From NCBI GenBank assembly GCA_943736015.1, contig OX031072.1:7653501-7717500 (forward strand): a stretch of DNA of 64,000 nt. Direction: 5' to 3'. The stretch comes from Tridacna crocea (lineage: Eukaryota > Mollusca > Bivalvia > Cardiida > Cardiidae). Below are positions 10,365 to 63,601 of this stretch, one piece after another. Position numbers and translations under genes: made by a program. Numbering within the stretch: the first letter of the stretch is position 1; each line of letters opens with the position of its first letter. Below the pieces are notes generated by a model. The model saw only the letters and a program-made list of their open reading frames with translations. It ran no database searches and had not been told where the DNA came from.

Positions 10365-10704
10365 TTAACTCTTTACCACACAATCCCGACTTTTCACGAC
10401 CCCCAAGAAAGAAAGTGTTTGAAAACATTGTTGGAAAAGGAGAAAATGCTGGTAACCAGCATTTTCTCCTTTACCAACAATATTTTCTACCCTTCCAAAA
10501 TCAAATTTCAATTTTTTAGTCACTCTTGGGAAAAGGAGAAATTGCTCGTTACAAGCAGTTTCTCCTTTTTCCACAGTGTTTTCAAAAGACTTGTACTGCA
10601 GACACGTAAAAACAAGGGCTTGTTTGGGAAATGGTTAATTTTATTGTCTGTAAATGCTTTCAATTTGGTCCAGCCTAAAATTTTGTCATGTGGTCAAGAG
10701 TTAA
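10365..10704 (+). mobile_element. Subfamily A copy interrupted by part of a subfamily B copy
   Basis: A-type left half and hairpin run to about 10527; 10528-10637 is the hairpin and one end of a B element (GAAATTGCTCGTTACAAGC, then ACTGCAGACACG, ending TTAA); the A-type right end resumes to TTAA at 10701. Confidence 0.82.
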
Positions 10705-10930
10705 CCCTTTACCCCATAAGGCATTTCTATGGTATCTCTAATTCACCCTAAATAACAGCAAGGATGAAGCTGTTACTTATGTGAATATGATACCTTTTGA
10801 TAGCATAGAAAACATTGTGACAAAAGGTGAAATTGCTCGTTGCGAGCAATTTCACCTTTTGCAACAATGTTTTCCAAAGGCTCCTACAAGCAATGCGTAC
10901 AAACGAGTATCTATGGAGTATAGGGTTTAT
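10701..10930 (+). mobile_element. Reference copy, subfamily C hairpin element
   Basis: Starts TTAACCCTTTACCCCATAAG. Core: GTGACAAAAGGTGAAATTGC then TCGTTGCGAGCAATTTCACC, with the same 67-nt size as A and B but different arms. Flanks CAGCAAGGATGAAGC and CTCCTACAAGCAATG are unique to C. Confidence 0.87.
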
Positions 10931-11200
10931 CCTATACCTCTCATTACTGAGTTTGAATGTCCGTAATGGAAATAGCTTTTGAAAACAATGTGGGAAAAGA
11001 AGAACCAGCATTTTCTTTTTTCCCCCACTATCTTTCCTACCATATCGGATGAATTCCTTTCTTTGAGCCTCTTGTGACATGTTGCCTGCAATTAGGTTTT
11101 AAAATAGCCATGTCTGCTATTTTGTTGTGCACTGCAATAAAGGTCTATCTCAGATTCTAATTTCATATCATATGGCACATTTTTCTTTTTCTTCTTGCAG

Positions 11201-11311
11201 TTTTGGTAGTGTAGGTCTTCCCAGCAAAATGGCCTCCCAGTCCACACCGCCAATGTCACAAGACACATTCGAGTATATTTGGAATCAGCTGGGAACGGTG
11301 ACAGAGGGAGA
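11201..11311 (+). CDS. TP63/TP73-like: p53-family coding exon 1 (with 28-nt 5'UTR piece)
   Basis: Pyrimidine-rich tract and AG acceptor at 11199-11200, then 28 untranslated bases and ATG at 11229. The exon encodes residues 1-27 including FEYIWNQL and leaves two bases (GA) before donor GTAAGT at 11312. The start was chosen because it is the first ATG after the acceptor and gives a family-like N-terminus; a second in-frame ATG is codon 9. Confidence 0.93.
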
Positions 11312-14300
11312 GTAAGTACCTTATAATCACCTTTATGTCTCCTAAGGTTTATTCGGCCTTAACCTTTTACCTCACTATTCCAAGTTTTGATGGACCTTCG
11401 AAAGAAGGGTCTCTAATTACAAAATTATTACAAACAAATAACCTTTTCACTACATAGCACGTAATGACGACTTTGATGACCCTGAGGAAGAAGCCTTTTG
11501 AAAATGTGGGAAAAGGAGAAAATGCTGTTTACCAGCATTTTCTCTTTTACCAAAAATGTTTTCTAGTGGCTCCTTTCTCAGGGTCATGATTGTGTAGTAA
11601 AGATGTAATATTATTTTCACAGCTTATTTTATATTATGCCAGTCTCAAAGGGGTACTGATACAACTATTTTTCCCAAGACACTTCTTTCTCATTTGCATC
11701 AGATGTGAGATGCAAAACATCACTGGAAAGAAAGTTTGCCTTGATAGGTTCTTAAACCTGCAACCATGAAGTGATGAGTTGGATACACTGATCACTGAGC
11801 TACCTACCTGTGATAATTTTTTTAACTCTTTACCCTTTACCCCATAAGGCATTTCTATGGCAGCTCTAATTAACACCAAATGACAGCAAGGATGAAGGCA
11901 TTTCTTATGTGTAAATAAAACCTTTTGATAGCATAGAAAACATTGTGACAAAAGGTGAAATTGCTTGTCACAAGCAATTTCACCTTTTGCCACAATGTTT
12001 TCCAAAGGCACCTATGAGTAAAGGGTTAAAAACAAAATTTTAGGCTTGTCCAAATTGAAAGCATTTGTAGGTCACAAACATGGCTCAAAATTCGAAGCTT
12101 GACTTTAGAAGATTAGAAAACCTTGAGTGAAAAGGAGAAACTGCTGGATACCAAAATTTTCTCATTTTCCTCAATGTTATTAGAAGGGTTCTTCATCTGG
12201 GCAGTAAAAATCAGGTATTATTTGGTCAAGGGTTAAGTAAGTGTTAAGTTACATTATGTAAAACTCGGCTGCTATGGCTAAACAAGGAATATATCATGTT
12301 TTCAGTAACTACACCAACATTGTCTCACGAGATATTGATTATTCATATGAGAGCAATGAAGAAGGAACATCGTTGCAGATTGACAAATTTAGAATTCAAC
12401 ATCAGGATGCAATATCCGATTTGGTAAGTCTTTATTCAACCATAAAACTGCTTTACCAAACAACAAAAATTTAGACTTGTCTGTAGTATTTGCTGATGAC
12501 AATGCGAAAGTGATTGAAAAATTAAAATTTTCTTGATGGTTAAAGACATTTGAGAAAAAAGAAGATGCTGTTTGCCAGCATTTTCTTCAATTTCATCATT
12601 GTTTTCCAAAGGTCTCTATCTCTTGTTTGTAAAAAATCTGCATTGTGTAGTAACGGGTTAACTCTTTACCAAACAACGAAATTTTGGACTTGTCCAAATT
12701 GAAAGCATTTGCAGACGACAAAATATATGTGGATCAAAAATTGGAAATTGATTTGGAAAGGCTAGAAATCATTGTGGGAAAAGGAGAAAATGCTTGTTAC
12801 CAGCATTTTCTCCTTTTCCCACAATGTTTTCCAAGGCTTTCTTTCTTGGGGTCATGAAAAGATTGTTTGGTAAAGAGTTAAACAATTTTTGATGTTCACT
12901 CTTCCCATGAGCTTAACTCCTTCAAAGGCAAATATTTAGACATTTACTAATTGGAAGCATTTTCAGACAAGTTTTATGTGACTCAAAAATTGAAGTGTGT
13001 TTTTGGAAGGGAAGAAAACACGGAAAAAGAAAACTTGCTGGTTACAAGCATTTTCACCTTTTCCTACAATATTTTCATAAGGCTTCTATCTCTTGGTTTT
13101 AAGAACCTGGAATTGTTTGGTAGAGTTGAACACTAGACGAAAGTAACCATGAAAATACAATTATTGTGTCTGGGTGTTATGTCTTGATTGATTTACCCTT
13201 TCCCAAACAATCCATGGTTTTCATGATCCTGAAAGAGAAGCCCTTTGAAAACATTGTGGGAAAAGGAGAAAATGCTGGTAACCAGCATTTTCTCTTTACC
13301 CACAATGTTTTCTACCCTCCCATAACAAATTTCAATTTTTGAGTTAACCCTTTACCAAACAATCCCTGATTTTTACGACCCTGAGGATGCAAGCCTATTG
13401 AAAACATTGTGGGAAAAGGAGAAAATGCTGGTAACCAGCATTTTCTCCTTTTCCCACTATGTTTTCTACCCTGCTGGAAACAAATTTAAGTATTTGGGTT
13501 ACGTTTATTTTGTTGTCTGCAAGTGCTTTCAATTTGAGCCAGTCTCAAAATTTGTCGTTTGGTAAAGAGTTAAATTAGTTATGTTGTCTGCAAATGCTTT
13601 CAGTTTGAACCATTCTAAAACTTTGTTGTTTTGTAAAGAGTTAAAAAGATATAGATCTTAATGAATTACAAAAAATCTGTATAATGTATATTTTTACTGG
13701 GTTTATTTTATCCAGAGAATAGGTTAGTATATGTTGTAAAATAAAGAACAAGGGAGATAAATCTTAAAAGGATAAATTGTATTTCTCTGTGCAGTATGAA
13801 TGCTTATGATAAGTGTTTCTGACCTTATCTGTTGATGTAATGTGCTAGGTTTTTCAAATCTGCCAATTTATCTATAGTTCTTGCTGCAGATAGTGAAGAT
13901 GGGTTCAGACTGCAAAATCTGATCTTGATCTACACTTTCAGTTATTTTGTTTGGATTATGACAACTGACATAGTGAGACTTTGAACTAGCTTTTTTCCCT
14001 TTTCTGACAATATTTTCAGCCTTCATTCTTTTGTAGGCCCACCTAAGGCATATCTTGTAGATTCTTCAAACAAATGAAGTCCATTTAACCAATGTTTAAC
14101 CCTTTCCCAAACGACAAATTTTAGACTCTTCCAAACTGAAAGAGTTTGCAGACGACAATTTTACCGTTCATAGTCATAGTAATGGCAGAAAATTATCCTA
14201 ACAGGCAAAAAACAATGTGGGAAAAGGAGAAATTGCTCGTTATGAGCAATTTCTCCTTTTCCCTCGGTGCTTTTAAAAGACTTGTACTGCAGACAAAAAG

Positions 14301-17300
14301 AAGGGCTTGTTTGGGAAAGGATTAAATTAAAGCTGCTCCAGTCTGAATGAAACTCTTATACTATATTATATAAAATTCTGGGTCCCTGCAATACTGATTG
14401 ATAAAAAAAAACTGGCTGGGGAAAAAAACTGCAGATGGATTGGCAGAAAATAGGATTGTTCCTTCAGATGTCAATTTATGGGTTTATAGCAACTTTTTAC
14501 CAAGTGCAATTTGGTCTGACTGACAAGACAAGTGGACATGATAACAGATTTGTCAATAATTTCTCAGTTAGGATAAGGATTTACCTGTCTGTCCTCAGTT
14601 TGTAGCCTGACCTTTCAACTCATTACCAAACAACAATATTTTAGGCTTGTCCAAATTGAAACCATTTGCAAAGACAAAATAAAGTGACTTTAAATTTGAA
14701 ATTTGTTTTGTAACGGGTACAAAACATGGGAAAAGGAGAAAATGATGGTTACCAGCATTTTCTCCTTTTCCCACAATATTTTCTACACCAGCAGTTTTGG
14801 TTACCAGCATTTTCTCCTGTTCTCACAATGTTTTCTACAGGCTTCTTTCTCACACAGTGCCAACTTCTTTTGGTAAAAGGGAAGAAGCCTTATGAAAACA
14901 TTGTAGAAAAAGGAGAAAATGCTGAAAAAGGAGAAAATGCCGAGAAACCCTAACATATATTTTTATGAAGCCTTGCAGACATTTCAATCTTAGAAAAACA
15001 ACTCATATAATTGCAATTTCATTGTTGCTTGTGTTTACAGTGTTTCAGGAAAGTGGACAATGTAGATCAAAGATCAGGCTGCATGTTTTGTGCAGCCTGA
15101 TCTTAATCCACATTGGCCAAAATGGCTACTGTAGTAGTTAAACAATCTTAACTCATTACCAAACGACAAAATTTTAGGTCTATCCCAATCGAAAGCATTT
15201 GCAGATGATAAATAAAAGTGACCCAAAATTTGAAATTTGTTTTGTGAAAGGTAGAAAACATTGTGGGAAAAGGAGGAAATGCTGGTTACCAGCATTTTCT
15301 CCTTTTCCCACACTGTTTTCGAAAGGCTTCTTTCTCAGGGGCGTCAAAATTAGGGATTGTGTGGTAATGGGTTAAAGGGATAAGAACATCTATTCAGCCA
15401 TTAGAAATTGCAAAAATATCAGTAAATATGTGTAAGGTATGCAATGTTGCTAGACAAGAGTGAATCTTATGCCAAACAAGCTTTTCTTTTGTTTTATCTC
15501 TACCATACAATCTCAACTTTTAACCCTTTACTCCATACTCATTTCTACACATTACTTGTAGGAGCCTTTGGAAAACATTGTGGCAAAAGGTGAAATTACT
15601 CGTCACGAGTAATTTCACCTTTTGTCACAATGTTTTCTATTCTATCAAAAGGTGTCATATTCACATAAGAAACAGCTTCATCCTTGCTGTTATTTAGGGT
15701 CAATTAGAGATACCATAGAAATGCTTCATGGGGTAAAGGGTTAACAACCTTTTGAAAAAATTGTGGAAAAAGGAAAAACATGCTGGATAATAGCTGTGTA
15801 ACATTCTGTTGTTCTGTAAAGAGTCATTTTTTTACTTGGAAAAAAAAGATGACAATAAAACACTGAAACCTGATACATATTAATTAATAATTACTAAGCT
15901 TTTTGAAATGAATTGGTTCAGTTGCTTTTAACAATGAGTATTGTATGCTACATGATAAGTTACTGTTTGACCCGCTGTATTGCATTAAGTTTTAACCACA
16001 CAATCCTGAGTTTTAACAACCCTTATAAAATAGCCTTTTAAAAATTTTGTGGTAAAAGGAGAATACTGGTAACCAGCATTTACTCCTTTTTCTACAAGGT
16101 TTTCTGTCCTTCCAAAAGTGAATTTCTGGGTTCCAGTTGCTTTGTCGTCTGCCAAACCTTATACTGGTAATAATTGCAAGTGTAAAGTTTTGTAATTTGG
16201 TAAAGAATTAACCCTTTACCACGTAATGCCAACCTTTGATGCTCCTGGAAAAGTTTTTTGAAAACAAAGTGGGAAAAGAAGAATATACTGGTAACCAGCA
16301 TTTTCTCCTTTTGCCACAATGTTTTCTACTCTTTCAAAAAAAAGTACACCATTTGAGCCAAACTGAAATTGTCGTCTGCAAATGCTTTCAATTTGAAGAA
16401 GGATGAAATTTTGTTGTCTGTCGTCATACTTGTCAAAATCAAAAGAAAAAGCAAGATGAAATAAAATAACCACTCCAACTATGAAATAGAATTGGTTGAA
16501 AAATGGGAAAAGGAGTATTTTCACCTTTCACCATTATGTTTATACCCCCCACAACGAAGCGGATGGGGGTATTCTGGAATTGCTATGGCTGTCTGTCCAG
16601 AACAATAATCACATTTAGTGATAGCTCTGGTTGCAACAGCTGTCTTCTCAACACTGTTTGATTTAAAGTAGAGTGTTTGGAAAAGGGCTTAAGAATCAAT
16701 TTAGATATTGCTATTTGTCACTAGTTTCAGTATGTCATGACACTTCTAATGCATCGATGGTTACTTCTGTATGTAAAAATGAAAGGATCCCTCCATGTTC
16801 AGGCAGAAAATCAAACATGGCTAAATTAAGATGGAACCTTCAATTAAAAGGGTAGTAATTTTTGTGAGAAAACAGATTTGCAGGTTTCCAACATTTGCTT
16901 CTCCTTATGATGCTTTAAAAGGTGATGGGTCATGTATATATGGAATTTATTATTTAGTGGATTATTTTAGTTCAGTAATTTAGCTGTGAATCCTTTACAA
17001 CACTTCTAAAGACCCTCAAAAGGAATCCTTTGAAAATATTGTTACGGGAGACCACTCCTTCCTGCATGGCATACTCCCGATTTAAATACAATACCTGGCT
17101 ATTGCGTCAGGGAGATATCTCTTTGGCTCAGTGGTTAGGGTATTGGCTTTGCGTCCGGGAGTTCGGAGTTCGAATCCCGCTCCGATCCTTATTTCTGCCA
17201 TGCATTTATTCATTTGTTTCTTTTTTACGGACTTCGTTCGTAAGATGGGGGCTCGTCCGGGATTGGCCATTGAGCTATTAGTCCCATTTGTTGTCCAAAA

Positions 17301-23300: not shown

Positions 23301-26300
23301 AGTGGTTAACTAGCAGTATACAATCAAGGACCAGTCATTGCTTGTTTGACCTTTGTCTCCGCACTATGTGGTATCAGATTGAGACAGCCTTTTTACAGGC
23401 AGATGATTTTGGTGTGGTAAGACACTTGCTATCATTTTTTTTTTTTAATTTGTCTGTATATTTGAATTTGTTAGTTTTAATTATTGGCAAATAAATAGAA
23501 GTTAAAAGAAAATAATGGAACCACTTCACTAAACAACAATTTTCGCCTGTTACTGCATGATACTGATTTATAATGACACTGACTGGAGATGACATCTGGA
23601 AACATTTTGGGGAAAAAGAGAAAATGCTGGTAATCGAAGTTGTGTCATTTTATCCACAATGAAATTGTCTGCAGCTGCTTTCAATTTAAGTAGGTCTAAA
23701 GTTTTGCTGTGTGGTTAAGGGTTAAGACTTCTTAATCAAAGGCATTTGAAGATGACATTTAATGCGGCTCTAACCACAAAATTTGGCTGTAATTAGTATA
23801 GAAAACATCGTGAAAATGCTGGTCACCAGCATTTTCTCCTGTTTCCAACAATGTTTTCAAAAGTCCATTTTGATGGGTAAACCGTTAAGGAGGCTGAACT
23901 ATAATATCAAAAAGAGATGTTGGAATGTTTCCAGAATCTTTATGATTGAAAAATCTCATAAAAGAATGATCAGTTTGCCTTTAAAAAAGCGTTTGTCAGA
24001 AATATTGGTGGGAGCATTGTGGTGAAAAGATAATTTGCTGGTTATTAACAATTTCCCCCTTTGTTACCATGTTTTCTAGAGTTGTCAGCTTGAGGGAAGG
24101 ACTTGTCATAGAAGTTTGCTCCTTTACAGGCAGTTCAGTATGCTTGACACTTTGCATGTTTGACTTTTGCATGCTGACATGCAATAAAGTCTATGAAATA
24201 AAAAATGTAATTGATATCTTGTCTGTTAGTAATTTGGAGCCATACCACTTTGCTTGATTGGTCAAAAGAACAGATCTTGTGAAATGGGATAAGATAATGA
24301 ATGCTACTTTCATTGATTCAACTAATTGAGTTTTCCCCTCTCAGATCCCTGATTTTGGAGAAATTTGATCAAGCATCCTTTTAACCCATTACCACACAAT
24401 CCCTACTTCTGACGCCCCTCAGAATGAAGCCTTTAGAAAACATTGTGGGAAAAGGAGAAAATGCTGGTAACCAGCATTTTCTCCTTTTCCCACAATGTTT
24501 TCTACCCTTCACAAAACAAATTTCAAATTTTCAGTCACTTTTATTTTGTCGTCAGCAAATGCTTTCAATTCGGACCAGTCTAAAATTTTGTTGTTTGGTA
24601 ATGGGTTAAAGAAATTCATGGAAAAATTCACCTGTTTGCCTGCAAAGGACCTGCAAAAAAATTGTTATGTTTATACATTAACCCATGACAGGGCAATCAC
24701 TATTTTCAACGACCCTGTTGTAAAGATCTTCCGAAAACATTGTAGATATAGGAGAAAATGCTGGTAACCGGCATTGCCTCATATTTCCATGTTTTCTAGC
24801 CCTTGCAAATAGAGATTTGGACTTTTGTGCAAATGCTTTGAATTTGGACTAGTCTAAAATTTTGTCTCTTGGAGTTGATAAACTTCTTATTTCCTTTTCT
24901 TTTGGGTCAGTGAAACTTGAGATTATGTGGTTATGGTTAACCCATTACCACACAATCCCTACATTTGACGCCCCTGAGAAAGAAGCCTTTAGAAAACATT
25001 GTGGGAAAAGGAGAAAATGCTGGTAACCAGCATTTTCTCCTTTTCCCACAATGTTTTCTACCCTTTACAAATCAAATTTCAAATTTTCAGTCACTTTTAT
25101 TTTGTCGTCTGCAAATGCTTTCAATTTGGACCAGTGTAATATATTGTCGTTTGGTAATGGGTTAACTCTACCAAACCTCAAAGCGCTAGACTTGTCCAAA
25201 TTGAAAGTACTAATTTGTGGACGACAAACTAAATGAGACTCAAAATTGAAATTTGTTCTGGGAAGGGTAGAAAACATTTGTGGAAAAATGAGAAAATGTT
25301 GGTAACCAACATTTTCTATTTTTCCCATAATGTTTCTTACGCAATCAAAACAAAAATCATAATTTGAGTGAAGTTTAACTCTTTCCCAAACAAGCCCTAG
25401 TTTTTACGTGTCTGCAGTACAAGTCTTTAGAAAACACTGTGGGAAAAGGAGAAATTGATCATAACGAAAAATTTCTCCTTTTTCCACAGTGTTTTCTAGC
25501 CTATCGGAAAACTTTCTACCATTCTCATCAAATTCATTTAATCCAATCAAAATGTGAATTGCATTTTTCTCTGTTATTTCAGCTGAATCCTATAATAAGT
25601 CAAACATCAGCAGCGTCCATGTCGCCAGATAGCCAGACCAACATTATCGGTAGCACAGCTTCCAGTCCATACAATGACAGTGTAAGTTCTTATTTTGTTT
25701 TCTGTAGAGATTAACTCTTTACCAACCACTCCAGACTTTTAATGATCTCCTGTAAGAACTGCGTTTATTGGTTACGACAAGATTATTTCATTACTTTCCT
25801 GTAATAAAAACTGTCTGGCCATTATGGGAAATTGGTCTTGTAAATGATTATTAGGGTTGTTAGTACTTCACCACTTTTAACAGAAACAACCTCCCTTGAA
25901 AACTTTTTTTATACCCCTGAAAAACGAATGTTTTCGGGGGTATACTGGAATCAGCCTGTCTGTCCGTCCTTGTGTCTGTTTCCGTCTGTGTACAAAATAC
26001 TAGTAATTTTGTGTTGTGAACTCCTCCTATAGTTTTCCCTCAATTGTATTGAAACTGGACATATATTGATCATATATTGAAGATTTGCAAGATGCAGTTT
26101 TTGAGTGTCAACTCTTCCTGGTTGAGGAATTGTCTCCCCTTGACACTTTTTTTATGTCAACGCTCTGGTTGAGGTATTAAGTGACATTCAGTGACAGTTC
26201 TGGTTTTTTTTTTTAACCTGTTTGTCAAGCATCTTTATAGTAAAGAATTTTTGATAAAAAGGACAAGTATTAAGAAATTGCACCATTTCTAGCCATTTTC

Positions 26301-29300
26301 TTTTATCTAATTGTGTTAGAAGATCTAGAAGTAACCTATATAGTAAGTGAAAGGTTAACTTTAAGTCTTGGGATATTCACTATTGAAACTGCTTTCAGAT
26401 GATGATGGAATTGTTTCTGAAAGAACAGAAAACATTGTGGGAAAAGGAGAAAATGCTGGTGACCAGCATTTTCTCCTTTTCCCACAATGTTTTCAAAGTC
26501 CATCTCTGTTGTGGTAATCAAAAAATTGCAATTACTTTATCTTCTAAAACTGGGCGAATGAGGTAAAGGGTTCAGAGAAAAAGGTCAATGCATCTTATAA
26601 AATGCCGAGTCCGACATATCGGAATCGTTTGTTTTGATCCTAATTGCAGATGATACAGCTTTTCCAGAAAACGAGAAGTATCAATTGTTTTGATCTAAAA
26701 CGATTTGTGTTTTCATGAGTTATTCATTGATGAATCTAAAGGGTCTCATACTTTATTAATTGTCTCGTCACATCAAAGTATTCTCTGACATGCAAACTGC
26801 AAACCCTTTCCTTGCATCCCAGTAGCTTGATCCTAATTGTACTTGACTGCTGTAGAAATTACCGTAACCCTTCGCTACATGGCAAAATTTTAGACTCGTT
26901 AAAAATTGAAAGTATTAAAGGCGAAAAAATAAATGTAATTCAAAATTCACCATTTGTTTCGGGAGCAGTGGAGAACATAGTGGGAAAAGAGAAAATACTG
27001 GTTAGTAGCATTTTCTCCTTTTCCCAAAATGCTTTCAAAACCTGTCTTTCTCCGGGTTGTTAAAAGAGGGGTTTATGTGGCAAAAGGGAATCATGTCGGC
27101 ACAAATTTGGCACAAACTTGTATAGGCAATCCAAAGAGATCAGGCTTTTTTGATAATGGTAATATTTTTTCCTTTTCCTGCAATATTCTTGTATTCATAC
27201 GCCAAGGTTTATGCTAGAGCATGGCTCAAATGAATGTGCAGTCGTCTGTAATTTGATTCGATTTTTGTTATGTTTGCAGACACTCACCAGCCCACCGCCA
27301 TACTCCCCTCATACCAACATGACATCACCCATTCCAACAGTACCATCCAAGTAAGTAGTCCTAAAATGTTGGTCCCTGCTTTAGCAGATAAATTCTTAAC
27401 AGACAATAAACTTTTTACTGATGGATAGAATTTTAGACTTGTCCAAATTTAAAGCATTTGCAGAGAACAAGTCAAATGTCACTTATATGATGGTTAATGT
27501 CTAAGAAACTGGAGTTAACCTTTTGAGAAAAGTAGAAAATGCTGGTTACATACTTTTTTTCACCTTTCCCACAAGGTTTTCTAAAGGCTAAATCCTCAAG
27601 TTCATTCAAATGCTTGATTGTGATGACTTTTAAACTGAATGCATTTGAGGTGTACAGATTAAGTATTTGTGTAAAAAACAATTGGGCTTAGACAGGTTTG
27701 AAGACATGGAAAAAGTAAAAATTCTTGATAACCAGCATTTTCCACAATGTGCTTCAAAGCTTTATACCTCTGGTAACACTAAGCGTGATTGTTTGGTAAA
27801 GGGATAACAATTATAATTAACACTGCACAAATGATAGAATTTGTCTTTGAAGGGCTATACAGGTTACCAGCAATTTCTCCAGTTCTCTTGGTATTTTTCT
27901 ACCCTACCAAAGGCAAATGGTATCATTTTAGCCACATGTTATGTTGTTTTCTGCACATGCTTTCAACTTTGTAGTATGGTAAAGAGTTGCATTAAGGCAA
28001 GTTGAAAAGCAAAACTTTTTACACAGGCAACATTTTATAACTGGACAAAGAATTTATAGACTTTTTTACTGTTTAACTCGTAAACATAAATTCTCCAGAG
28101 CTGGATTTATGCCAAGGTATTGATTTTCTTGATCAATAAATCCAGCCATTGGAAAGTTGAACCTTTATCCTAATCATCAATTAGATTTTAACTTTTACTT
28201 ATGCCACGAGAAGGGTGTTTTTAGTCATTTATTTACTGAGTTCTTTAATCCACTATCAACCAGTCCTGAGTTTTTACCATTCTAGTGAAACACTTTTGAA
28301 AACATAAGAAAAGGAGAAGTTGCTGGTGACCAGCACTATCCTCTTTTCCCACAATGTTTTCTGCCCTTTCTACCCAAAAGTTAAAATTTGTTTTGGAAAC
28401 AGTAGAAAACATGTAGGAAAAGGAGAAAAAGCTGGTTACCAGCATTTCATCTTTTCCCCCCTGAATGTTTTCATAAGGCTTCTTTCACAGAGTTGTGATA
28501 ACCAGGGATTGTTTGGTAAAGAGTTATTTCTTTACTAAATTACAATTTTGGGTATGTTTTAAAATATTTTCAGAGGATATTATTTGTGGCATAGGTAGGA
28601 AAATTATCTATGGTAGGGTGGAAAACAATGTTGACTAGGAGGGAAATGCACATGAGTAGCATTTGCTCCATTTTGGGCAGTTTTCAAAAAGTCTCTATGA
28701 CAAAGTAATGAAAACTTTCATTAATTCATTACCATGCAGATATTTTCACATTGGTCTTTGAACTCTTTTATAAATGACAGAATCTAAATTAAAAGTATTA
28801 ACTTTGCAGACAACGAAATATTTCAAAAATTGAAGTTTGTTTTTGGAATGGTAGAAAACAGTGGAAAAAGGAGAAAATGTGCTTACTCTATCAAGATCGT
28901 TAAAAATAAAGAATATCTTGAAAAGGGTTCAAAACCTTTTTATCGGGGGCTGTAGAAATATAGTAAGATTTTGTAAAGGGTTATAGATGTTATATACTCT
29001 TAAAATCTTGTCATATTTCAAACAATGAGTTTGTTGAGATAAGATAAATATTGGATGAGTAAACAAACATGGTGGTGTATAGTGGCTTTCTGACCTCTCT
29101 ATATGTACATACACAGATAAAGTGATGTAAGGGCAGAATGCATTCAAACATTCTACTCTCTAACAAAACAGCTTTGCTGTTTTTAAGAGCATTTTGTGGA
29201 TTCAGGGCCTAAATCCACCAACCAGTCTGAAGAACATTCTTTTTGATTTTGTAAATTTAAAAGTAACAGACCTTATGGTTTAGCCAATCTGAAGTCATCT

Positions 29301-32300
29301 TACTTTCAAATTCTGAAAAAAGTCGGGTTATCAACATGAAGTGAGATTTAATCCGACACTGAGCAATCCCTTGTATAAAACGTGAAGGATGGAAGTGTTT
29401 AAAAAGATTGATGGAAAAAGAGAAAATTTCAATATTTTCTCCTTTTCTCACACAGTTATCCACCTTTCTATATTACACTGTTGCAAAAAAAAAAGTTTGT
29501 CATCTGCAAATTGTTCCAAATTGGAAAAATTAAGAATAAGTGGACTGATAAATAGTTTATACATAAAATTTAGTGAAAAAATGTTGCAAAAGAATTTTTT
29601 CTGTGAGTCTGAATGTGGAATATAAGTATGGTCTTTTGCCAAGGTGAAAAGTTTTAAGCATTATGATCATATTTCCATAAAGTTTGATGAATCCATTTTC
29701 AATCACAATTTGTCACTATATATAGACAAATGGAGATAAGCAGAGCATGGGGATGAATACAAATTTGATAATACCTTATGATAACTCTTGCTACGACACA
29801 AATTTTTAAATTTTTTGAAAAGATGACAAGGTTTCCAGGTGAGGTTTCAAGTATGTGTCATATGATGGAATTCAACTTGAAAAGGGTCGAAAACATTGTC
29901 GGGGTTAAAGGAGAAAATGTTGTTTGCCAGCATTTTCTCCATTTCCCACATTGTATTCAAAAGCCGTCTTTCTTGATTAGTAATAATCATGGGATTGTTT
30001 TGTAAAGGGTAAACTGCTTGAAGTCTACTAAGATCTACACTTCAGTAGAACTAGCTGTACATGCAACAATTACAGTGCATTCTCTACAGCCTTTTAACTT
30101 CTATAAATGTATTTGTGTACTTACAGCACAAACTATGCTGGAGAGTATGGGTTTGAGATATCATTTGCCACACCATCAAAAGAAACAAAATCAACGACAT
30201 GGACAGTAAGTTTGTTCTTATGATAAACATAGTGCTCTGCGTGAATTTCTTAGTGCAGCTATGTAGAGAGTGGGATAAGCAAGGGATTAAAATTCGTAGA
30301 TCATAACCTCTGTGATACATATTGTGGTGATTTTTCATCAGAAAAGCTTTTAGGTATCCCATTGAGATAAATTCCTCTGAGTATATATATTTTTTGTTCA
30401 AAGAAATGTTGAAATGCGGAGTATATGGAGTGCAACACGCGAAAAGGTGCATTCGGACATTTGCGTAAAGTGTCGTCCCGGATTAGCCTGCGCAGTCCGC
30501 GCAGGCTAATCCGAGACGGCACTTTACGACTACATTAGATTTTGTGCTACAGTAGACTTGTGTAAAACAGAAAATCACATACAATCGGAAAGTGTTGTTT
30601 CGGATTAGCCTGTGCGGACTGCACATGCTGATCAGAGACGACACTTTACGCAAATGTCCGAATGACCCTTTTCGCGTGTTGCACTCCATATAATACAATG
30701 CAGAGATGCATTAAGCCTCCTTTTGCCACAGCATGGCTTATTGACAAATCATATTGTGTAAAAATTTCCTGTTGTTTTTTTTTTTAAATTCTATACCAAA
30801 CCTCATAAGTCTAGACTTGTCAAAATTGAAAGCATTTGCAGAAGACAAAATAAATGTGACTGAAAAATCGAAATTTGATTTTCTTAGGGTAGAAAACATC
30901 GGGGGGGAAAAGGAGAAAATGCTGTTCACCTTCATTTTCTTCTTTTCCCACAATGTTTTCAAAAGGCTTCTATCACAGAGTCGTCAAAAGTTGTTATGTG
31001 TGGTAAAGGGTAAATATTTCCTTGTCTTTAATTGTTGAGAATATTTAATTACACAAAACACTTCTAATGACACTTTCGTTCATGTATTTTTCAGTACTCA
31101 GATGCGCTGAAAAAGCTTTATGTTAGAATGGCCACCACTTGTCCTGTGAGATTCAAGACCCAGAGAACTCCACCAACAGGCTGCATCATTCGTACCATGC
31201 CTATCTTCATGAAACCTGAACATGTACAGGAAACCGTCAAACGGTGCCCAAACCATGCCACATCGAAAGAAAACGAAAGTAAGCATTGTTACATTGGTCA
31301 TCACTAATTCTGTTTCCCTGAAGGGAACTAAACATACGGATTCATGCCAGAGAACACATTAATAGACTCTTCACAAGCATGCGAAATATAATTTATTAAA
31401 TTGTTGGTCTTTTGGAACATGATAAAAATGTCTGGAGAGGAAATTGTACACTTTGCGTACCAATCAGTTTGTTAAATAAAAACCACACAATCTCAACTTT
31501 TCATTGGGGAGAAAGCTGTCGAAAACATTGCAGGAAAAGGATAAAATGCTGGTAACCATTTTTCTTCTCAATCAAGGAGCGAAATATTCATTTTAGTTAC
31601 ATTTGTTGCCTGCATATGCTGTCAATTTGGTTCCGTCATAAATCTTGTCGTTTGGTAAAAGGTCTCATCCTGAATTTTATTATTTCAGATCATCCAGCAC
31701 CCAATCATCTTGTTCGTTGCGAACATAAAGTCGCGAAATATGTTGAAGACCCTTACACTAGCCGCCAGTCAGTGATCATCCCTCATGAACAACCTCAGGC
31801 AGGATCTGAATGGGTCACCAACTTGTTTCAGTTCATGTGCTTGGGCTCGTGTGTAGGAGGCCCAAACAGACGTCCACTCCAAATTGTGTTCACTTTAGAA
31901 AAGGAGTAAGTTGGTGTTGTCGAATAATTTTTTGACCGATTGTAATACTACGAAATATAACACTAATGTTCAGTATTTCAGTTATTGCCTTTTTAAGAGA
32001 TAACTCTTGAAAAAGGCAATAACCAAAATATTGAACATTAGAGTATTATTTTTCATAGTGTTTTAGTTATTCTCTAAGGAATATCAAAGTATTATCAAGT
32101 TGTAATGGTTTTGTTTCAGTTATATTTTGACAACAAGTGCACCTATCTATTTCATGGAGCTTCTTTAGCCAGTGCTTAGCAAAATACTTCTGAAGCCACT
32201 GGCTGCTTTCCAACATATTCCTTGTGAAAATAGTATCTCATCTTGGAAATTTGTGAACAGCTTAATTTTAATGTTACCTTTGTACTAAAGGGCAAAATTT

Positions 32301-39500: not shown

Positions 39501-42500
39501 AGACTTGTCCATATTTGAAAGCATCTGTAGAAGACAATATTTATGGGGATGCTTACTTCATGACTAAATATTTGAAAACATTGTTGGTAAAGGTGAAATT
39601 CTGGTGACCCACACAAGTGTGATATCATTGTGCACAGAAGTAATAAACTGACAGGTTACAGTGTATACCCATGAAATCCAAGTCGGTATTAACCTGGCCT
39701 TTATGGAAGAAGCCTTTCGAAAAGATTATGGGGAAAGAAATGCTGGTAACCAGGTTTAACCCTTTATTACCCAGTCTTGACCCTAGAAAAAAGCTTAATG
39801 AAAACATGTGGAAAAAGAGAAAATGCTGGTAACCAGTAACCTTCTCCCACTATGTTTCTACCAGTCCTTACACCATCTTTGAAATTTGAGTCACACTTTT
39901 TTGTTGTCTGCAAATGCTTTCAATTTGGACTAGTCTTAAATTTTGTCATTTTAGAAAGAGTTAATGTGTAATATTTTAGCTCTGTATTGTCATTCATTGG
40001 GGCATTGTTTGGGCTATTGTTGGGAACATGTTTTACTCTGGGGCATAGAGCCTTAATTGTTTACAGCTTCTTTACTGTATAGATAAATGTATTTATACAA
40101 GTTTGTATAGTTCAATTTGTATAGTGGAGAATTTTAATACAAAATTTCACTTGACTGAGGAGTGTTGTTTTTGATTTTAGAGTGAATGATGTGAATATAC
40201 CCACTCTTTCCATGAATGATTTGATAGTTGTTGTTTAAACCTTTAAAAAACATTCTGATCAGCAGATAATATAAGCCTGCAAGCCCTAACCCTACGTTGT
40301 AAATATTGAAGAAAGCTTTTGAAGACAATGTGGAATGAGGAAAAATGCAGATAAAAGGCATTTTTTTTTTTTCTTTTTTGAATATGTGTTTTAAATTTTT
40401 CAAAGACAGAAACCATTTTGTAAGCTACAATGAACTAGTTGTCTGCCATGGCCCTCAACTGGATGGAGTCTAAAATTATGTCTGAGGTGTAAATTGAAAG
40501 CTGAACCAAACTTTCGACTAGTCCATGTTGGAAGTAATGCAAGACAACAACTGAGATGTGGTTCACCTGTAAGGATGAAAGCCATGCTCTGGCTAAGGGG
40601 GCTTAATACATCTCCCTGATTAATTGAGCCAAGGAAGCCATCACATAATTATGGATCCTTAACCCTTTACCAAACAAGCCCTGGTTTTTACGTGTCTCCA
40701 GTACAAGTCTTTTGAAAACACTATGGGAAAAGGAGAAATTGCTCGTTACGAGCAATTTTTCCTTTTCCCACAGTGTTTTCTACCCTTTTGGAGAACTTTC
40801 TGCCATTTTCTCCAAATCTTAAATTGTCGTCTGCAAACTCTTTCTGTTTTGAAGGGTCCAAAATTTATCATTTGGTAAAGGGTTACGATTCATTTTGTCT
40901 GGCAACCAATGAAAGCATAAAATAGACTGGTTCTTGATGAAGATTCTGTTCAGGTTAACCAAATTGGTTACCAAACAATTCAGTATTTTAATCCTGGTTT
41001 GAAAAAAACTTCCCAAAAAACTGTTGAAAATGGAGAAAATGCTAATAACTAGAATTTTCTCCTTTACTCTCAATGCTTTCTACCCTATCAGAGTACTTCA
41101 GTTCATTTGAATAGACTTACCTCTTTACCAAACGACAAAATTCAAGACTGGTCCAAATTGAAAGCACTTGCAGATGACAATAAATGCAAGTCAGAAATTG
41201 AAATTTATTTCCAGTTGGCTAGAAAACATAACAGCATCTCCTTTTCCCACAGTATTTTGCACCCTATCAGTCGGAAATCGTCATATAATCAAGATTTAAT
41301 TTGTTGTCCGCAGATGCTTTGTATTTGATCCAGTCCAAAACAAAAATTTGGCGTTTAGTAAAGAGTTATGTCTTGAAAGGGGGGCTTGGCTTTGTTTTCT
41401 GCAAGATTGACAAGATTTGTCTGGTAAAGATGTACAGTTATTCATCAGACCACATCACAGAGGAATAATTGAAAATAAATTATTTCATTGAAATGATACC
41501 CATGACCTCTTGATAGAATCATACAAAAGATATTGTGTTTTGCATTTACACATGGCCATTTTGTTATTGATCCATAATGAAATCATACATTAAGCCCCCT
41601 TACGTCACTCACTGCCATGATATGGCCACAATTGTTGAAAAGGCCTTGAACTCCATTACAGTCAGATCCAGAAAATTTTGTTCAGTAGTTAAAGATCCTG
41701 GTCCACAATGGAAATACACATCATTATACAGTACATCAAATATACATCAAGCCCCCTTTTCTATGACGGGGCTTAACCCATTACCACACAATCCCTACTT
41801 TTGATGCCTCTGAGAAAGAGGCCTTTAGAAAACATTTTGGGAAAAGGAGAAAATGCTGGTAACCAGCATTTTCTCCTTTTCCCACAATGTTTTCTATCCT
41901 TCACTTAAAAAATTTAAAATTTTCAGTCACTTTTATTTTGTCGTCTGCAAATGCTTTTGATTTGGACAAGCCTAAAATATTGTCGTTCGGTAATGAGTTA
42001 ATTGATAAAAAAGATATGTGTGAAGACTATCATTAGAAACAAATGATGATTTTTCATCATTTTTTTGTCAAGGATTTTAGATAATGTCTGTCCAAATGGA
42101 TGGACAGACAGATGGATGAACAAATTGATGGAATAGATGGACTAATAACAAAAAGGCTATCTTCACGCACAAAACACAATATCTTGTATAATTATATTTC
42201 AATCAAAAAAGGTCTTTTTCGGCAGGAGATATTCAACAAACTAACTTGCTCATCAAAGTTTTCTAAAAAGCTGGAGTCATTAACCCTTTATCAAACAATT
42301 CCTGGTTTTTGCGAACCTGAGATAAAAGGCCTTTGAAAATAAAAATGTTGTGGGAAAAGGAGAAAATGTTGGTAACCAGTATTTTCTTCTAGTCCCACAA
42401 TGTTTTCTACCCTGCTAGAAACAAATGTCATTATTTGAGTTTGGTTATTTTGTCATCTGCAGGTACTTTCAATGTGGACCAGCCTAATATTTTGTTGTTT

Positions 42501-50235: not shown

Positions 50236-50863
50236 TGAAACAAGTTGAAGCAAATATACTTGTTACATTGAAGATGAATTATATTTTTGTCACAGAAGTT
50301 ATTACAAAATTTGTACAGTTATCACAGTCTAAGAGATGCTGTTCCTTTTATTTTGTAGTTTAGAGTCTATTAAGTTAATAGATTGGTTATTATGTGAACT
50401 TTTTATTTATGGAAATTGAATATTTTATGTTGGTGTTGTTTTTGAGATAGAATTTTTTTTCAAATTAAAAATGAAAATTAATGAGTAATGAAGGATTTCT
50501 GTTGTTAACGATTCCAGATGTTTAGACAGTATTGGAAATGTTGAAAAAAGAACACTTTTGAAGGAAATTTACAATACATTTCTCAGTCATATATACGTTT
50601 TTCTTTATGAATTTACTTGGGAGAATGAATCACATTTAGAGAAAAAAGTATTTGAAATTGCGTCAGATTTTGGACAGAATAAATTCTATACGTTTGTCCC
50701 TAGGCATTGTTGTAAATACTGTAAAAAACGGGGTGATTTTATATAAAACTGTTGAAATGGGTGTATTTTTCTACTCTGCAATTGGTTTTTTTTTTTTCAT
50801 ATTTTATATTTCCTTTTCTATTTCCTTGGTGAAGTCGGACTCAAACCTCTGTATGGCACTTCA
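50236..50863. other. AT-rich intergenic stretch
   Basis: Nothing recognised beyond homopolymer runs. Confidence 0.4.
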
Positions 50864-51092
50864 TTCACTCTTTACCAAACATAAAAATTTAGACTGTTCC
50901 AAATTGCAAGCATTTGCAGACAGCAAAAATAATGTGACTCAAAAATTGAAATTTGTTTTGGGATGGGAAGAAAACATTGTTGGAAAAGGAGAAAATGCTG
51001 GTTACCAGCATTTTCTCCTTTTCCCACAATGTTTTCAAAATGCTTCCTATTCAGGCTCATGAAAACCAGAAATTGTTTGGTAAAAGGGTTAA
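50864..51092 (-). mobile_element. Subfamily A hairpin element, full length
   Basis: CACTCTTTACCAAAC to GGTAAAAGGGTTAA; core perfect except near the outer edge. Confidence 0.87.
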
Positions 51093-54152: not shown

Positions 54153-54383
54153 GTTAACCCTTTACCCGATAAGGCATTTCTATGGCATCCCTAATTGACT
54201 CTAAATAACAGCAAGGATGAAGCGGTTTCTTATGTGTAAATATCACCTATTGATACCATAGAAAACATTGTGACAAAAATAGAAATTGCTCGTCACGAGC
54301 AATTTCACGTTTTTGCCACAATGTTTTCCAAAAGCTCCTACAAGCAATGTGTAGAAATGAGTATCTATGGAGTAAAGGGTTAA
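54153..54383 (+). mobile_element. Subfamily C hairpin element
   Basis: TTAACCCTTTACCCGATAAGG to GGAGTAAAGGGTTAA; hairpin with GCTCGTCACGAGC, inserted next to a decayed A copy. Confidence 0.87.
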
Positions 54384-59697: not shown

Positions 59698-59920
59698 GTC
59701 CTTTACCACACAATTCTGACTTTTAACGACCTTGAGGATAGAGGTTTTTGAAAACATTTTGGGAAAAGGAGAAAATGCTGGTAACCAGCATTTTCTCCTT
59801 TTCCCACAATGTTTTCTACATTCCCCCCAATTTTTTTTTATTTTTAAGTCACATTTATAATGTCTGCAAGTGCTTTCAATTTTGACAAGTCTAAATTTTT
59901 GCCGTTTGGTAAAGAGTTAA
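59698..59920 (+). mobile_element. Subfamily A hairpin element
   Basis: CCTTTACCACACAATTCTG to GGTAAAGAGTTAA; perfect inner stem; C-run in the right half. Confidence 0.87.
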
Positions 59921-60147
59921 AGTAAGGTGTCCCTTCCAAAATGTTAGTTCTAACAATCCTGGGGCATTGCTCGTTTCAGTCCTTATTCTGTAGGGGTGCA
60001 AAAATTATCTGTAACCCAAATGCCATTTTTGTTGGCATCACAAAGTTGCTACAAAGCATGGGGAAACTGGCGACGCATCTGATGGGTGACTTGCAATGAC
60101 TCAGATGATTGATTGTATGGTTTTAATGCCGTTTTCAACATTTCAAT

Positions 60148-60310
60148 TAAATCACTGTGGCAAGTGCACCTACCAATGCTTTCTTGGTGTCTCTTTTACC
60201 AGTACTCCACACAATTTTCTTTCCAAGCCACTGGCTGCTTTCCAACATAACCATCGCCGGACTCCCGAGTGAGACCAAAGGATCTGACAACTTACACTTA
60301 GATAGGATGG
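60148..60310 (-). repeat. SINE fragment, reverse strand
   Basis: The reverse strand has GTTGGAAAGCAGCCAGTGGC, AAAATTGTGTGGAGTACTGG, matching the body of the 48874 SINE. The tRNA head is eroded. Confidence 0.65.
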
Positions 60311-60473
60311 TTGGGTTTTTTACCTTCAGTATAAAGCTGATCTCTATCTAAAACACCAACATATTTCTGTTTCGATTTTTTTTAATATCTGTTTATATAA
60401 TACATGTATATAGGTACTTTTTTTTTCTATATTTACCATTTATTATTTTAACCCTTCAACTACTATGTACTTC

Positions 60474-60575
60474 TTAACTCTTCATTCTACCAGCATTTTC
60501 TCCTTTTCCAACATTGTTTTCTAAAGGCTTCTTTCTCAGGGTCATCAAAAGTAGGGATTATGTGGTATGGGTTAA
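60474..60575 (-). mobile_element. Half subfamily A copy
   Basis: TTAACTCTTCATTC joins straight into the second hairpin arm and the TATGTGGTATGGGTTAA end. Another old copy follows (60576-60735). Confidence 0.7.
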
Positions 60576-60792
60576 ACATAGCTCAAATGGCTATTTCTGC
60601 CTGATAGGATAGAAAGTACTGTCAGAAAAGGAGGGAAAGATGGTTACCAGCATTTTCTCCTTTTCCCACATTTTCAAAAGGCGTCTTGGTTAGGATTGTT
60701 AAATGCAGGATTGTGTGTCATAAGATTAAAAGGACACTTTCAAATCATCCGGAAAGTTGAACCCCAAAATAGGTCTACAGTACACTCCAGAA

Positions 60793-61019
60793 TTAACTCT
60801 TTACCAAACGACAAAATATCAGACTGGTCCAACTTGAAAGCATCTGCAGATGAGCAAATAAACGTGAATTAAAATTTGAAACTTGAATTTGGAAGAGTAG
60901 AAAACATTGCGGGAAAAGAAGAAAATGCTGATTACTAGCCTTTTCTCCTTTTCCCTGATATTTTCAGAAGGCTTCTTCCTAAGGGTCGTTAAAACCAGGG
61001 ATTGCTTGGTGAAGATTAA
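60793..61019 (-). mobile_element. Subfamily A hairpin element
   Basis: TTAACTCTTTACCAAACGAC to GCTTGGTGAAGATTAA. Confidence 0.83.
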
Positions 61020-61149
61020 AAAAAAAAACAAAAGATGAAGTAGCTGTGAATTAATGTAAAAAAACAACATTTATTTCATGCAGCATAGGCTGTTAATAAT
61101 AAATGCTGTCAGATCTGAGAAAGTTTTCACCTCCTCTTACCAACTAGTC

Positions 61150-61430
61150 TGTTTCAGGTCTGTATCAGACAAAATTTTACACTTGTCCAAATTGAAAGCA
61201 CAGAATATCGATAGGTGAGTGTAATACTATTCTAAGTGCCTGTATGTTGTACAGGCACTTAGAATAGTACTGTACTCACCTATTGAGATCTGCAGACGAC
61301 AAATGCCAGTAAAATGACGAATTTTTCCCGTGAAAATAGCGAAAAGTGTGGAAATTAGAGAAAATTATTATCATCAAACACTACTTTCTTGGGGTTGATA
61401 AAACTTGGGAATGGGTGGTAAGGGATTAAG
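61150..61430 (-). mobile_element. Old subfamily A copy carrying a foldback insertion
   Basis: CACTTGTCCAAATTGAAAGC is separated from GCAGACGACAAATGCC by an unrelated 90-bp palindrome; hairpin reduced. Confidence 0.65.
61201..61290. repeat. 90-bp foldback with 5-nt loop
   Basis: Left arm 61209-61244 (ATAGGTGAGTGTAATACTAT, TCTAAGTGCCTGTA) pairs with 61250-61285 with very few mismatches around TGTTG. It differs in sequence from the TTAA hairpins. Confidence 0.85.
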
Positions 61431-61713
61431 CCCAACTTTCTTGTGTTTTAACGACCCTGAGGAAGAAGGCTTTCATATGGAGAAAATGGAGTTAAACAGC
61501 ATTTTCTTTTTTTTTCACCAAAATTTCCACCTTGCAAAAATTTCCCCTTCCACAGTATTAGGTCCTTTATAAATATGTGCTTGATTGTAAGGGAAAAATG
61601 GTCTTTTGAGAGAACAAATATGTAGGTAAGTGAACTCAAGAAAGTCTAGTACAGACCTATTTATTTCACTTTGTTGTGATGTATAGAAAATAAATTCATG
61701 CTGGTAATATAGT

Positions 61714-62145
61714 CTATTCGACATTTGCAAATTTGATCAATTCTTCTCCCTTAAGTCGGAATAAATTCCAGTCTTCTTCACTGGTTAAATTTCTTGATCC
61801 CTTGGATTTATAAAAATCAATAGCTCGTTGGTTCCAACTTAGACACACCCAGTCTAGTCTGCAACAATTCCTGTCGACAGCTATCTTAGCAACAGCCCTC
61901 CACATTTTGGTTCCTATGCCATTGTGACGGAATGATGGGGTTATGTAAAGATCTTCCAAAAAGACAGATACACCCTCCCATGTGGAATATATGAAGTAAA
62001 ACAATGCATATCCAACAATCTCTTTGGTGCTGTTAACTTCTGCAACTAAACAGCGGAACATTGCCTCGTCACCAAAACCATCTCGTCTAAGTGTATCTGC
62101 ATCTATTTTAACTCCATCTGGCATCTTTTCAAATTCGGCTAGCTC
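61714..62145 (-). CDS. SAT2: SAT2-like exon 2 (GNAT domain)
   Basis: Acceptor TTCTGTTTTAG precedes GAG at 62145; the frame runs 143 codons to TAG at 61714-61716. It carries the whole acetyl-CoA binding and catalytic part. The intron between the exons (62146-63526) contains a subfamily B hairpin element. Confidence 0.94.
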   Translation of the reverse strand, partial: ELAEFEKMPDGVKIDADTLRRDGFGDEAMFRCLVAEVNSTKEIVGYALFYFIYSTWEGVSVFLEDLYITPSFRHNGIGTKMWRAVAKIAVDRNCCRLDWVCLSWNQRAIDFYKSKGSRNLTSEEDWNLFRLKGEELIKFANVE

Positions 62146-63601
62146 CTAAAACAGAAATTGCGCAGCATAATCATTGTACCAAATCCCATCACTGGAGCCA
62201 TGTTAAGGTTGTGTTATCCCATATCCACACAACCTGGACTTTTAAGAACCCTAAGAAAGATTTTAAAAATGTTGTTGGAAAAAGAGAAACTGCTAGTGAC
62301 CAGGATTTTCTCCATTCTCTCCGTTTTTTACCCTGTGTAGAATTATTTTATCATTTGGGCCATCTTTCGTCTGTTGTCTGCAAAATGCTTTTGATTTGGA
62401 CATGTCCAAAATTTTTTCACTTGGAAAAAGTTAAGCAAATGCTTTCCATATCAACAAGTCTGGAAAGGTCTTAAATTTTTGTCAACTGGTAAACAGTTAA
62501 CTCTGGCTGCTTAGTGCGATTCATTGATCTTTTGCAGACAGGGTAGATCAAGATCAGAATGTGCAGTCTGATCTTTGTTCTACAGTCCGATAAGGATATA
62601 TAATTCTTCTGAGTATACCTTCAGGGTTTTTACTACGGAATTGAAAATTACATTTTAGATTTAATAATTAAGCAGGATAAGTGTTAAACATTGGAGAGCA
62701 TAGATCTAATCTCTACATCTCATACAACTTTTAAAAAGAAGTATGCCCAGACAGACTTGTGTACATCTACGTCTATCTCTATATCCAATCATGCGAGTTT
62801 TTTTCCTCTAAATAAGATCTTAACCCTTTCCCAAACGACAAATTTTGGACTGTTTCAAACCAAGAGTTTGCAGACGACAATTTTAGATTTGGAGAAAATG
62901 GCAAAAAGTTCTCAAAAAGGGTAAAAACACTGTGGGAAAAGGAGAAATTGCTCGTTACGAGCAATTTCTCCTTTTCCCACAGTGTTTTCAAACGACTTTT
63001 ACTGCAGACACGTAAAAACCAGGGCTTGTTTGAGAAAGGGTTAATCTATCTACCCAACGAGCCCTGATAAGTAATTTACTGGTCACACAATTTTGTACTT
63101 TGCTCACCCTGGTGAAACGGGCTTTTGACATATCGTGAGAAGAATCTACTGATAACCGTCATTTCCTCCTTCTCCCGCAGTATTTTCTATCGTTTCAGAG
63201 GCGAACTCTACGAGTTGAGGAATATCTAATTTGTCGTCTGCAAATTCTTTGAATATGTCAGTAATTTTGTAGATCTAGATCTAATTTGTTGTCTGCAAAT
63301 GCTTTCAATTAAGACAAGTTTAAAATTCAGTCCTCTGTTAAACAGTTATCGTTTGAAATGGACACTTCACTTCGCTGACAAGAGTCCCTTAGCACAGCAC
63401 CCAAAACAAGGGGCGCGAAAAAAAAATCAGGAGGGGCGAACAAGATTTAGGGCGAATACCAATAATCACGTGGCGATGACCTTTGTCAGACATGACCTAC
63501 TATACATATTACATTTGATACATTACCTTGATCAGACGAATAACTGCCTCACAATCATCCGCCCTGGCCTTGCGAATTGTAACGTCAGCCTTACTTGTCA
63601 T
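61714..63601 (-). CDS. SAT2: Diamine / thialysine N-acetyltransferase (SAT2-like), two exons, spliced
   Basis: Exon 1 (63601-63527) and exon 2 (62145-61714) join in phase 0 to give 168 residues, the usual size of SSAT-family enzymes. Visible family features: N-terminal VTIRKARADDCEAVIRLI, ELAEFEKMPD, DGFG, YFIYSTWEG, the substrate-site LEDLYI, the acetyl-CoA loop RHNGIG (residues 98-103), WNQRA (129-133) and the Tyr of FYKSKG (Y137, equivalent to the catalytic Tyr of SAT1). Family knowledge: GNAT enzymes that acetylate polyamines or thialysine with acetyl-CoA in the cytoplasm. SAT1 against SAT2 specificity cannot be settled from sequence. Transcribed toward the p53-family gene. Confidence 0.95.
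62540..62590. repeat. Small GATC-type palindrome in SAT2-like intron
   Basis: GGTAGATCAAGATCAGAATG and GTCTGATCTTTGTTCTACAG form an imperfect inverted repeat like those at 15055 and 21195. Confidence 0.6.
62820..63044 (-). mobile_element. Reference copy, subfamily B hairpin element
   Basis: 225 bp between TTAA sites in the SAT2-like intron. Core palindrome runs AACACTGTGGGAAAAGGAG, GAAATTGCTCGTTACGAGC and back, with uninterrupted arms of at least 30 bp. Ends CCCTTTCCCAAACGAC and GTTTGAGAAAGGG. Confidence 0.9.
63527..63601 (-). CDS. SAT2: SAT2-like exon 1
   Basis: ATG at 63601-63599 opens 25 codons ending Arg-Leu-Ile-Lys, directly followed by donor GTAATG (63526-63521). The start gives an N-terminus aligned with SSAT proteins. 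The 5' flank is somewhat richer in CpG than the rest of the window. Confidence 0.92.

Follow-up and report, generated by a model that had tools for sequence, protein, structure and literature searches.

The palindromic hairpins considered here lie in a 64,000-nt stretch of the Tridacna crocea genome (assembly GCA_943736015.1, contig OX031072.1, positions 7,653,501 to 7,717,500 of the forward strand), which is referred to as the window. Judged by their sequence, they form the centers of elements that belong to a very abundant superfamily of piggyBac-type miniature inverted-repeat transposable elements (MITEs). A palindrome of 67 nt is common to three families, A, B and C, and the substitutions that separate them are mostly mirrored on the two arms. 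The palindrome is probably a symmetric cis-acting site that is selected for transposition in amplifying lineages, with the mirrored differences being inherited. Selection in the amplifying lineage is favored because the palindrome sequence is constant across lineages, the inherited changes are paired, and the private changes are mainly one-armed. Symmetry is mainly a property of the amplifying lineages; individual copies mutate one arm at a time.

Structure and abundance of the element

The element opens with TTAA and CCC(T/A)TT..., continues with approximately 100 nt, the 67-nt palindrome and approximately 50 nt, and closes with ...AA(A/T)GGG and a second TTAA. When the palindromes are oriented by their flanks, the element is 228/229 bp long and starts with TTAACCC(A/T)TT(A/C)CC, with the inverse at the other end. 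TTAA stands at either end of the B and C consensuses, and A is the same except for an unaligned first letter. Members of the piggyBac superfamily use a TTAA target and have CCC ends. The TTAA at both ends, a putative target duplication, would place the element among the piggyBac/TTAA MITEs. Its terminal inverted repeats are of the CCC(A/T)TT(A/C)CC type, with 1-3 mismatches between the two ends when 18 nt are compared in the consensuses of seven subfamilies (undetermined letters excluded). The terminal motif is CCCT or CCCA, and CTC is found at the left end of A1 and A8CC. The element is also short, homogeneous and non-coding, as a MITE should be: lengths of 220-239 bp account for 61 of the 78 elements defined by their ends, and a length of 228 bp limits internal frames to approximately 75 codons. 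Helitrons have no terminal inverted repeats and carry a 3' hairpin followed by CTRR, whereas these elements have inverted TTAA ends and a central palindrome.

The 78 end-defined elements come from a search that used the ends only. It allowed one substitution per end, took the nearest partner 120-450 bp away, and covered the window and 16 of 18 sampled regions, with the tandem arrays L006 and L009 excluded. A core arm match of at least 26/33 is present in 75 of the 78, and the other three carry badly decayed palindromes. Because all 78 have the palindrome, it is a constant part of the elements and not an artefact of palindrome-based searching. At least 24/30 pairs are reached by 67 of these elements, compared to only 14-19/30 in 60 shuffled 228-base windows, and three copies folded as DNA gave z scores of -15.2, -14.3 and -16.8. 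The quality of the palindrome is thus far beyond chance.

The assembly was searched genome-wide and comprises 1.05 Gb in 31 contigs, 18 of which exceed 40 Mb. For coverage, 18 regions of 10 kb (180 kb) were chosen by position, and elements occupy 19.8% of this sample (198 matches, 153 with the palindrome). Two of the regions are tandem satellites containing the element; the arrays L006 and L009 have units of approximately 2.1 and 1.65 kb, with one palindrome per unit. Extrapolation from these 18 places gives a rough figure of approximately 1 million copies. Genome-wide, single arms match exactly 12,957 times for B and 9,261 times for C, where one element can contribute two arms, and a 78-mer of C with up to 3 mismatches occurs 17,329 times. 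A backward control pattern returned 0 in every pattern search. With the near-duplicate rows L022, L032, L033 and L036-L038 removed, 301 kb of de-duplicated sequence contains 362 element matches, 278 of which span the palindrome. Reduction of L006 and L009 to one copy each left 269 aligned copies.

Within the window, an ungapped scan with A-type and C-type references finds 96 palindrome copies scoring at least 42/67. The copies described in the initial annotation lie where it placed them, and its A, B and C sequences are correct. Its outermost positions, 10701 and 63044, are TTAA ends of whole elements (matches 10702-10927 and 62821-63043).

Inherited and private changes in the palindrome

Arm positions are numbered from 1, the outer G, to 33, the inner T. 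The A and B consensuses differ at positions 8, 26 and 31, all of them mirrored. Between A and C, mirrored differences are found at 14, 21, 26 and 31, and the main form of C has a further change, at position 13, that is confined to the left arm. Five inherited differences (8, 14, 21, 26, 31) are therefore paired and one (13) is not, and the shared palindrome with mirrored substitutions that the initial annotation had described is confirmed at 5 of 6 sites. The consensus is fully paired in B and in every A cluster of at least four copies and has one mismatch (13) in the main form of C; in three smaller clusters, of two or three copies each, it is incompletely paired.

The sequence itself is also kept. 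Subfamilies A1-A5, which were clustered on their flanks only, have consensuses with 0/66 palindrome differences in all ten comparisons, while their flanks differ by 10/113 to 31/123 (9-25%) and their terminal repeats by 0-4. Selection in the amplifying lineages is supported because these five lineages keep the sequence, which copying between arms alone would not do.

Individual copies show a different distribution. The 269 aligned copies contain 1263 one-arm changes along with 94 complementary pairs and 79 non-complementary doubles, and the arms are free of mismatches at aligned sites in 15 copies and have one mismatch in 36. The claim that these palindromes stay palindromic holds for subfamily consensuses and fails for individual copies. 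Pairing is far more frequent among the inherited differences (5 paired, 1 unpaired) than among those of the 158 copies that have changed least (17 paired and 388 single; Fisher p = 1.6e-6), where position 8 T>C had been removed by hand and a fuller exclusion gives 16/373.

Arm-to-arm copying in resident copies, through template switching in replication or hairpin repair, would be another way to keep the arms symmetric, and such a process has been documented elsewhere (PMC8794818, on the part available). Paired changes do exceed expectation. Swapping arms between similarly diverged copies predicts 70.7 +- 7.2 such pairs, and the observed 94 was not reached in any of 300 shuffles. About half of this excess is inherited, chiefly in the 8C/C subfamily. 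When inherited sites are removed, 1203 one-arm changes, 74 pairs and 76 non-complementary doubles remain, with 63.2 +- 6.4 pairs expected and 9 of 300 shuffles as high; the same exclusion in the 158 least changed copies leaves 16 pairs where 9.7 are expected (matched or exceeded in 10 of 300 shuffles). A slight genuine surplus of paired private changes, of about one per hundred changes, is therefore possible. The palindrome also changes at less than the flank rate, as copying might predict. However, one-arm changes are more than ten times as common as paired ones. If copying is unbiased, it transfers a change to the other arm as often as it removes one, and a deficit of 20-50% would need hundreds of extra pairs, yet the excess is 11-23. 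The pair counts rule out in-place arm copying as the main cause, and it is very unlikely to be what keeps the symmetry. Of the two causes proposed in the initial annotation, arm-to-arm copying and selection for the folded structure, the first can make at most a small contribution in resident copies (1263 against 94), and selection is supported at the level of the amplifying lineages.

An excess at position 8 was considered as a sign of arm copying and rejected, since it reflects the inherited 8C/C subfamily. The 8C/C pair is inherited because its 13 copies have close flanks, with a mean flank distance of 0.152 compared to 0.351 for random sets of 13. By eye, 12 of the 13 form one subfamily. 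Changes at this position on one arm only, in contrast, occur in copies with unrelated flanks.

Genome-wide counts at single sites bear on the same question. At position 28 of C, exact 35-place tips are unchanged in 14,579 cases, changed on one arm in 225 and changed on both in 4, where independence expects 0.87 (Poisson p = 0.012, assuming equal copy ages). The double change is the ACTCG/CGAGT pair that had been called private to the copy at 15520. That copy does carry the pair (palindrome 15571-15637), together with an unpaired position 13, and the pair is rare; it is not private, being found in 4 exact tips genome-wide. These tips lie on three position-13 backgrounds, A/G (two), G/G and A/A, so the pair probably arose three or more times, which is a point in favor of copying in resident copies. 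Its use as a subfamily marker was rejected on the same grounds.

For position 13 of C, copies were counted with the remaining 48 places matched exactly and C at the center; 4246 have G/G, 3752 have A/G and 699 have A/A. A/G is an unpaired intermediate that amplified well. A neighboring unpaired C>T is found in 55 exact copies, and A/A at position 13 is 12.7-fold commoner. If copying in resident copies were the source of A/A (699/4451), approximately 18 pairs would be expected at position 28, and 4 were found.

The A/A copies could also arise through symmetrization coupled to transposition, in which the palindrome is extruded or repaired during excision and the arms are equalized in new insertions only. 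The counts of 699 and 55 fit this explanation, as does the prevalence of one-arm changes, since changes after insertion would remain one-armed. On a flank tree of 60 C copies, A/A is unclustered and requires 16 changes compared to a shuffled mean of 16.8 (194 of 500 shuffles as low). That tree, however, has no well-supported branch; on it, G/G requires 13 changes, with 8 of 500 shuffles as low. Frequencies also differ between 20 A/A and 20 A/G haplotypes (C at column 199 in 6/20 and 1/20, A at column 86 in 1/20 and 6/20), which leans toward an inherited lineage, with an overall separation of p = 0.061 for an A/G set chosen by a longer, stricter exact match. Symmetrization of this kind would leave the constant sequence unexplained and is rather unlikely. 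A combined explanation, in which the lineage proof-reads and repairs its symmetric core at each move, as the excess of A/A in C might suggest, and selection holds the sequence, is unlikely.

A symmetric site and its alternatives

If selection acts in the amplifying lineage, the palindrome would be a two-fold-symmetric cis-acting site, and copies with a near-symmetric, near-wild-type palindrome would be mobilized best. By analogy, the simplest binder would be the paired DNA-binding domains of the transposase or of a partner protein. Mirrored subfamily differences would arise within an amplifying lineage and then pass to its descendants, and at least one mirrored change would go through an unpaired intermediate (position 13 of C). 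The terminal repeats follow the same pattern, as B and A3 carry an identical A-to-C change at either end relative to the other A subfamilies.

Selection could instead act on a folded RNA or DNA hairpin in the active element, that is, on structure and not on protein recognition. The strong fold and the paired inherited changes agree with this, and the position-13 intermediate is a G-T wobble on one strand. A symmetric binding site is favored over the fold because the sequence is kept besides the pairing and because four of the five paired inherited changes, which swap A:T with T:A or G:C with C:G, cannot pass via a wobble. Across A, B and C, 27 of 33 arm positions are identical, which is beyond what pairing needs, and the 64-kb window has 0 Rfam matches at the gathering score. 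Hairpin selection is improbable. The unpaired A/G of C, present in 3752 exact copies, also speaks against a strict form of selection in the amplifying lineages.

An independent origin of the palindrome in each family, through inverted duplication of a single diverged arm, is highly improbable. By eye, the outer sequences of C are unlike those of A and the palindromes are alike, as such duplication would produce. However, the same ends, the single central base position and the arm length occur in all three families, the differences are single bases, and an unpaired intermediate is present in thousands of copies. No one-armed relatives were found among the 269 aligned copies, all of which had to cover the palindrome.

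Several findings weigh against a selected symmetric site. Symmetry is not a strict requirement, since A/G, which is unpaired, amplified to thousands of copies. Among the A consensuses, those of A3, A4 and A5 rest on 6, 6 and 4 copies. Nor is the palindrome invariably the best-conserved part of the element: A3 and B have identical terminal repeats (0/26) and differ in the palindrome (6/66, all mirrored pairs). At 67 nt, the palindrome is far longer than the 19-bp and 12-14-bp palindromes of piggyBac and piggyBat. In 20 transposase loci of 118 matches, neither longer MITE ends beyond the first bases nor an autonomous element with an internal palindrome was found.

The rates of change belong with these findings, since the palindrome may be weakly protected in place. 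With three independent sets of flank columns, one to choose relatives, one to bin and one to measure, 133 of 246 A copies gave a palindrome divergence of 0.51-0.62 of the flank divergence in every quartile; part of this deficit is inherited flank difference. Equal palindrome and flank rates in the least diverged copies were considered and rejected, as the copies had been binned on the columns being measured and independent columns show the deficit. A second test was restricted to variants present in a single copy of a subfamily, with CpG excluded. The palindrome-to-flank ratios are 0.66 (A8CC), 0.90 (A2), 0.52 (A3), 0.91 (A4) and 0.79 (C). For B, the ratio is 0.65 without two outliers and 0.52 with them (p = 0.004), and no other set is significant alone. 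The six sets pooled give 139/3773 compared to 364/7933, or 0.80 of the flank rate. Resident palindromes probably decay near the flank rate and somewhat below it, and the remaining deficit could stem from composition, from subfamily structure that was not fully removed or from weak correction in place. The initial annotation had named a counter-case in which most copies carry unpaired differences at the flank rate and only the youngest are symmetric. One-arm changes are indeed the rule, at approximately 0.8 of the flank rate, but symmetry is also present in the consensuses of diverged subfamilies.

Copies in the window and comparison with known systems

Representative copies are listed in the table. 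The match coordinates of the first row start at the second T of TTAA.

Table. Palindrome elements in the window, by family
Feature	Element	Strand	Palindrome	Basis
Family C element, first copy of the initial annotation	10702..10927	+	10808-10874	nhmmer full-length match, 207 bits
Family C element, 3' end unaligned; two arm changes, paired, at a CpG (position 31)	11831..12031	+	11936-12002	scan and element match
Family C element with ACTCG/CGAGT pair	15521..15743	-	15571-15637	element match
Family C element	54155..54382	+		element match, 172 bits
Family B element	14097..14324	+	14208-14274	scan and element match
Family B element, partial	25376..25533	-	25430-25496	scan and element match
Family B element	40660..40885	-	40714-40780	scan and element match
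Family B element, last copy of the initial annotation	62821..63043	+	62923-62989	scan and element match
Family A element, perfect 35-bp arms	24382..24608	-	24434-24504	element match and fold
Family A element, perfect 35-bp arms	24938..25164	-	24990-25060	element match
Perfect A palindrome, outer sequence strongly diverged	26428..26494 (palindrome)	+		scan
Family A element, inherited 8C/C subfamily (paired change, position 8)	8812..9038	-	8866-8932	scan and element match

Within each arm, for example at 24436-24468, two similar stretches (GAAAACATTGTGG and GAAAATGCTGG) are apparent by eye, and the palindrome may hold four half-sites. The element is read into open reading frames (ORFs) at several places in the window, such as 37278-37613 and 50652-51062, and ORFs derived from it could yield false conserved peptides in gene prediction. 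A separate palindromic repeat family occupies 30422-30692, with the core GGATTAGCCTGCGCAG and 125-nt arms that are 86% complementary. Similar palindromes occur in the loci L003, L010, L011 and L014, and palindromic repeats of this kind are common in bivalve genomes. On the minus strand, 61714-62124 contains a 136-aa ORF that by eye resembles part of a GNAT-type acetyltransferase.

The genome contains 118 matches to the piggyBac transposase family (PF13843), fragments included. In 11 of 20 loci examined, TTAA-CCC...GGG-TTAA ends surround the gene, and seven of these have CCCTTTA. Four contigs share nearly identical stretches of 4 kb or more (L035-L038) that contain a piggyBac-family transposase match, which is flanked on both sides by palindrome elements within the shared stretch.

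No other description of a mirrored-palindrome MITE was found in the open-access literature, among the matches listed (titles and abstract openings). Three longer strings of the arm occur in none of the open-access papers searched, three of which contain a 12-letter string only, and the arm has no exact match in viral and prokaryote contigs. Bivalve transposons are the subject of a separate paper (PMC10294476, available in part).

The closest precedent appears to be the CMITEs of Acropora corals, set beside the present elements by description only. According to the available part of that report, CMITEs are small TTAA elements of approximately 100 bp with CCCTTT-type ends, are linked to piggyBac, and form several families told apart by their ends (PMC2872659). 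They have a 75-base internal region that is more conserved between families than the ends are, occur in tandem arrays, and number approximately 1600 copies in A. millepora (PMC2872659). The TTAA, the CCCTTT-type ends, the piggyBac link and the occurrence in tandem arrays are shared with the T. crocea elements. Unlike CMITEs, the present elements are 228/229 bp long, have a 67-nt palindrome with mirrored family differences, and cover approximately 20% of the sampled sequence. In the CMITE text available, the strings 'palindrom', 'hairpin', 'secondary structure' and 'symmetr' are absent (PMC2872659). In T. crocea, the interior is more conserved than the terminal repeats in seven of the ten A1-A5 comparisons (1-4 differences in the repeats, 0 in the palindrome); both are 0 in the other three, and A3 and B show the opposite. 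The coral puzzle of a MITE interior more conserved than its ends becomes testable in T. crocea, whose elements have a long palindrome with mirrored changes as their interior.

In piggyBac and piggyBat, the transposase binds short palindromes through paired C-terminal domains (PMC11707139, in the part available). Palindromic internal sites bound by two such domains resemble the arrangement suggested here. Those palindromes are short and near the ends, whereas the present elements have one long palindrome near the middle of a non-coding element.

RNA stems maintained by template switching carry compensated substitutions, as the families do here, and a single event can change both arms (PMC8794818, likewise from the available part); the changes within T. 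crocea copies are instead mostly one-armed. The very large number of resident copies provides a background for measuring selection in the amplifying lineage, and genome-wide counts at single sites separate the two causes of compensated change, selection and copying.

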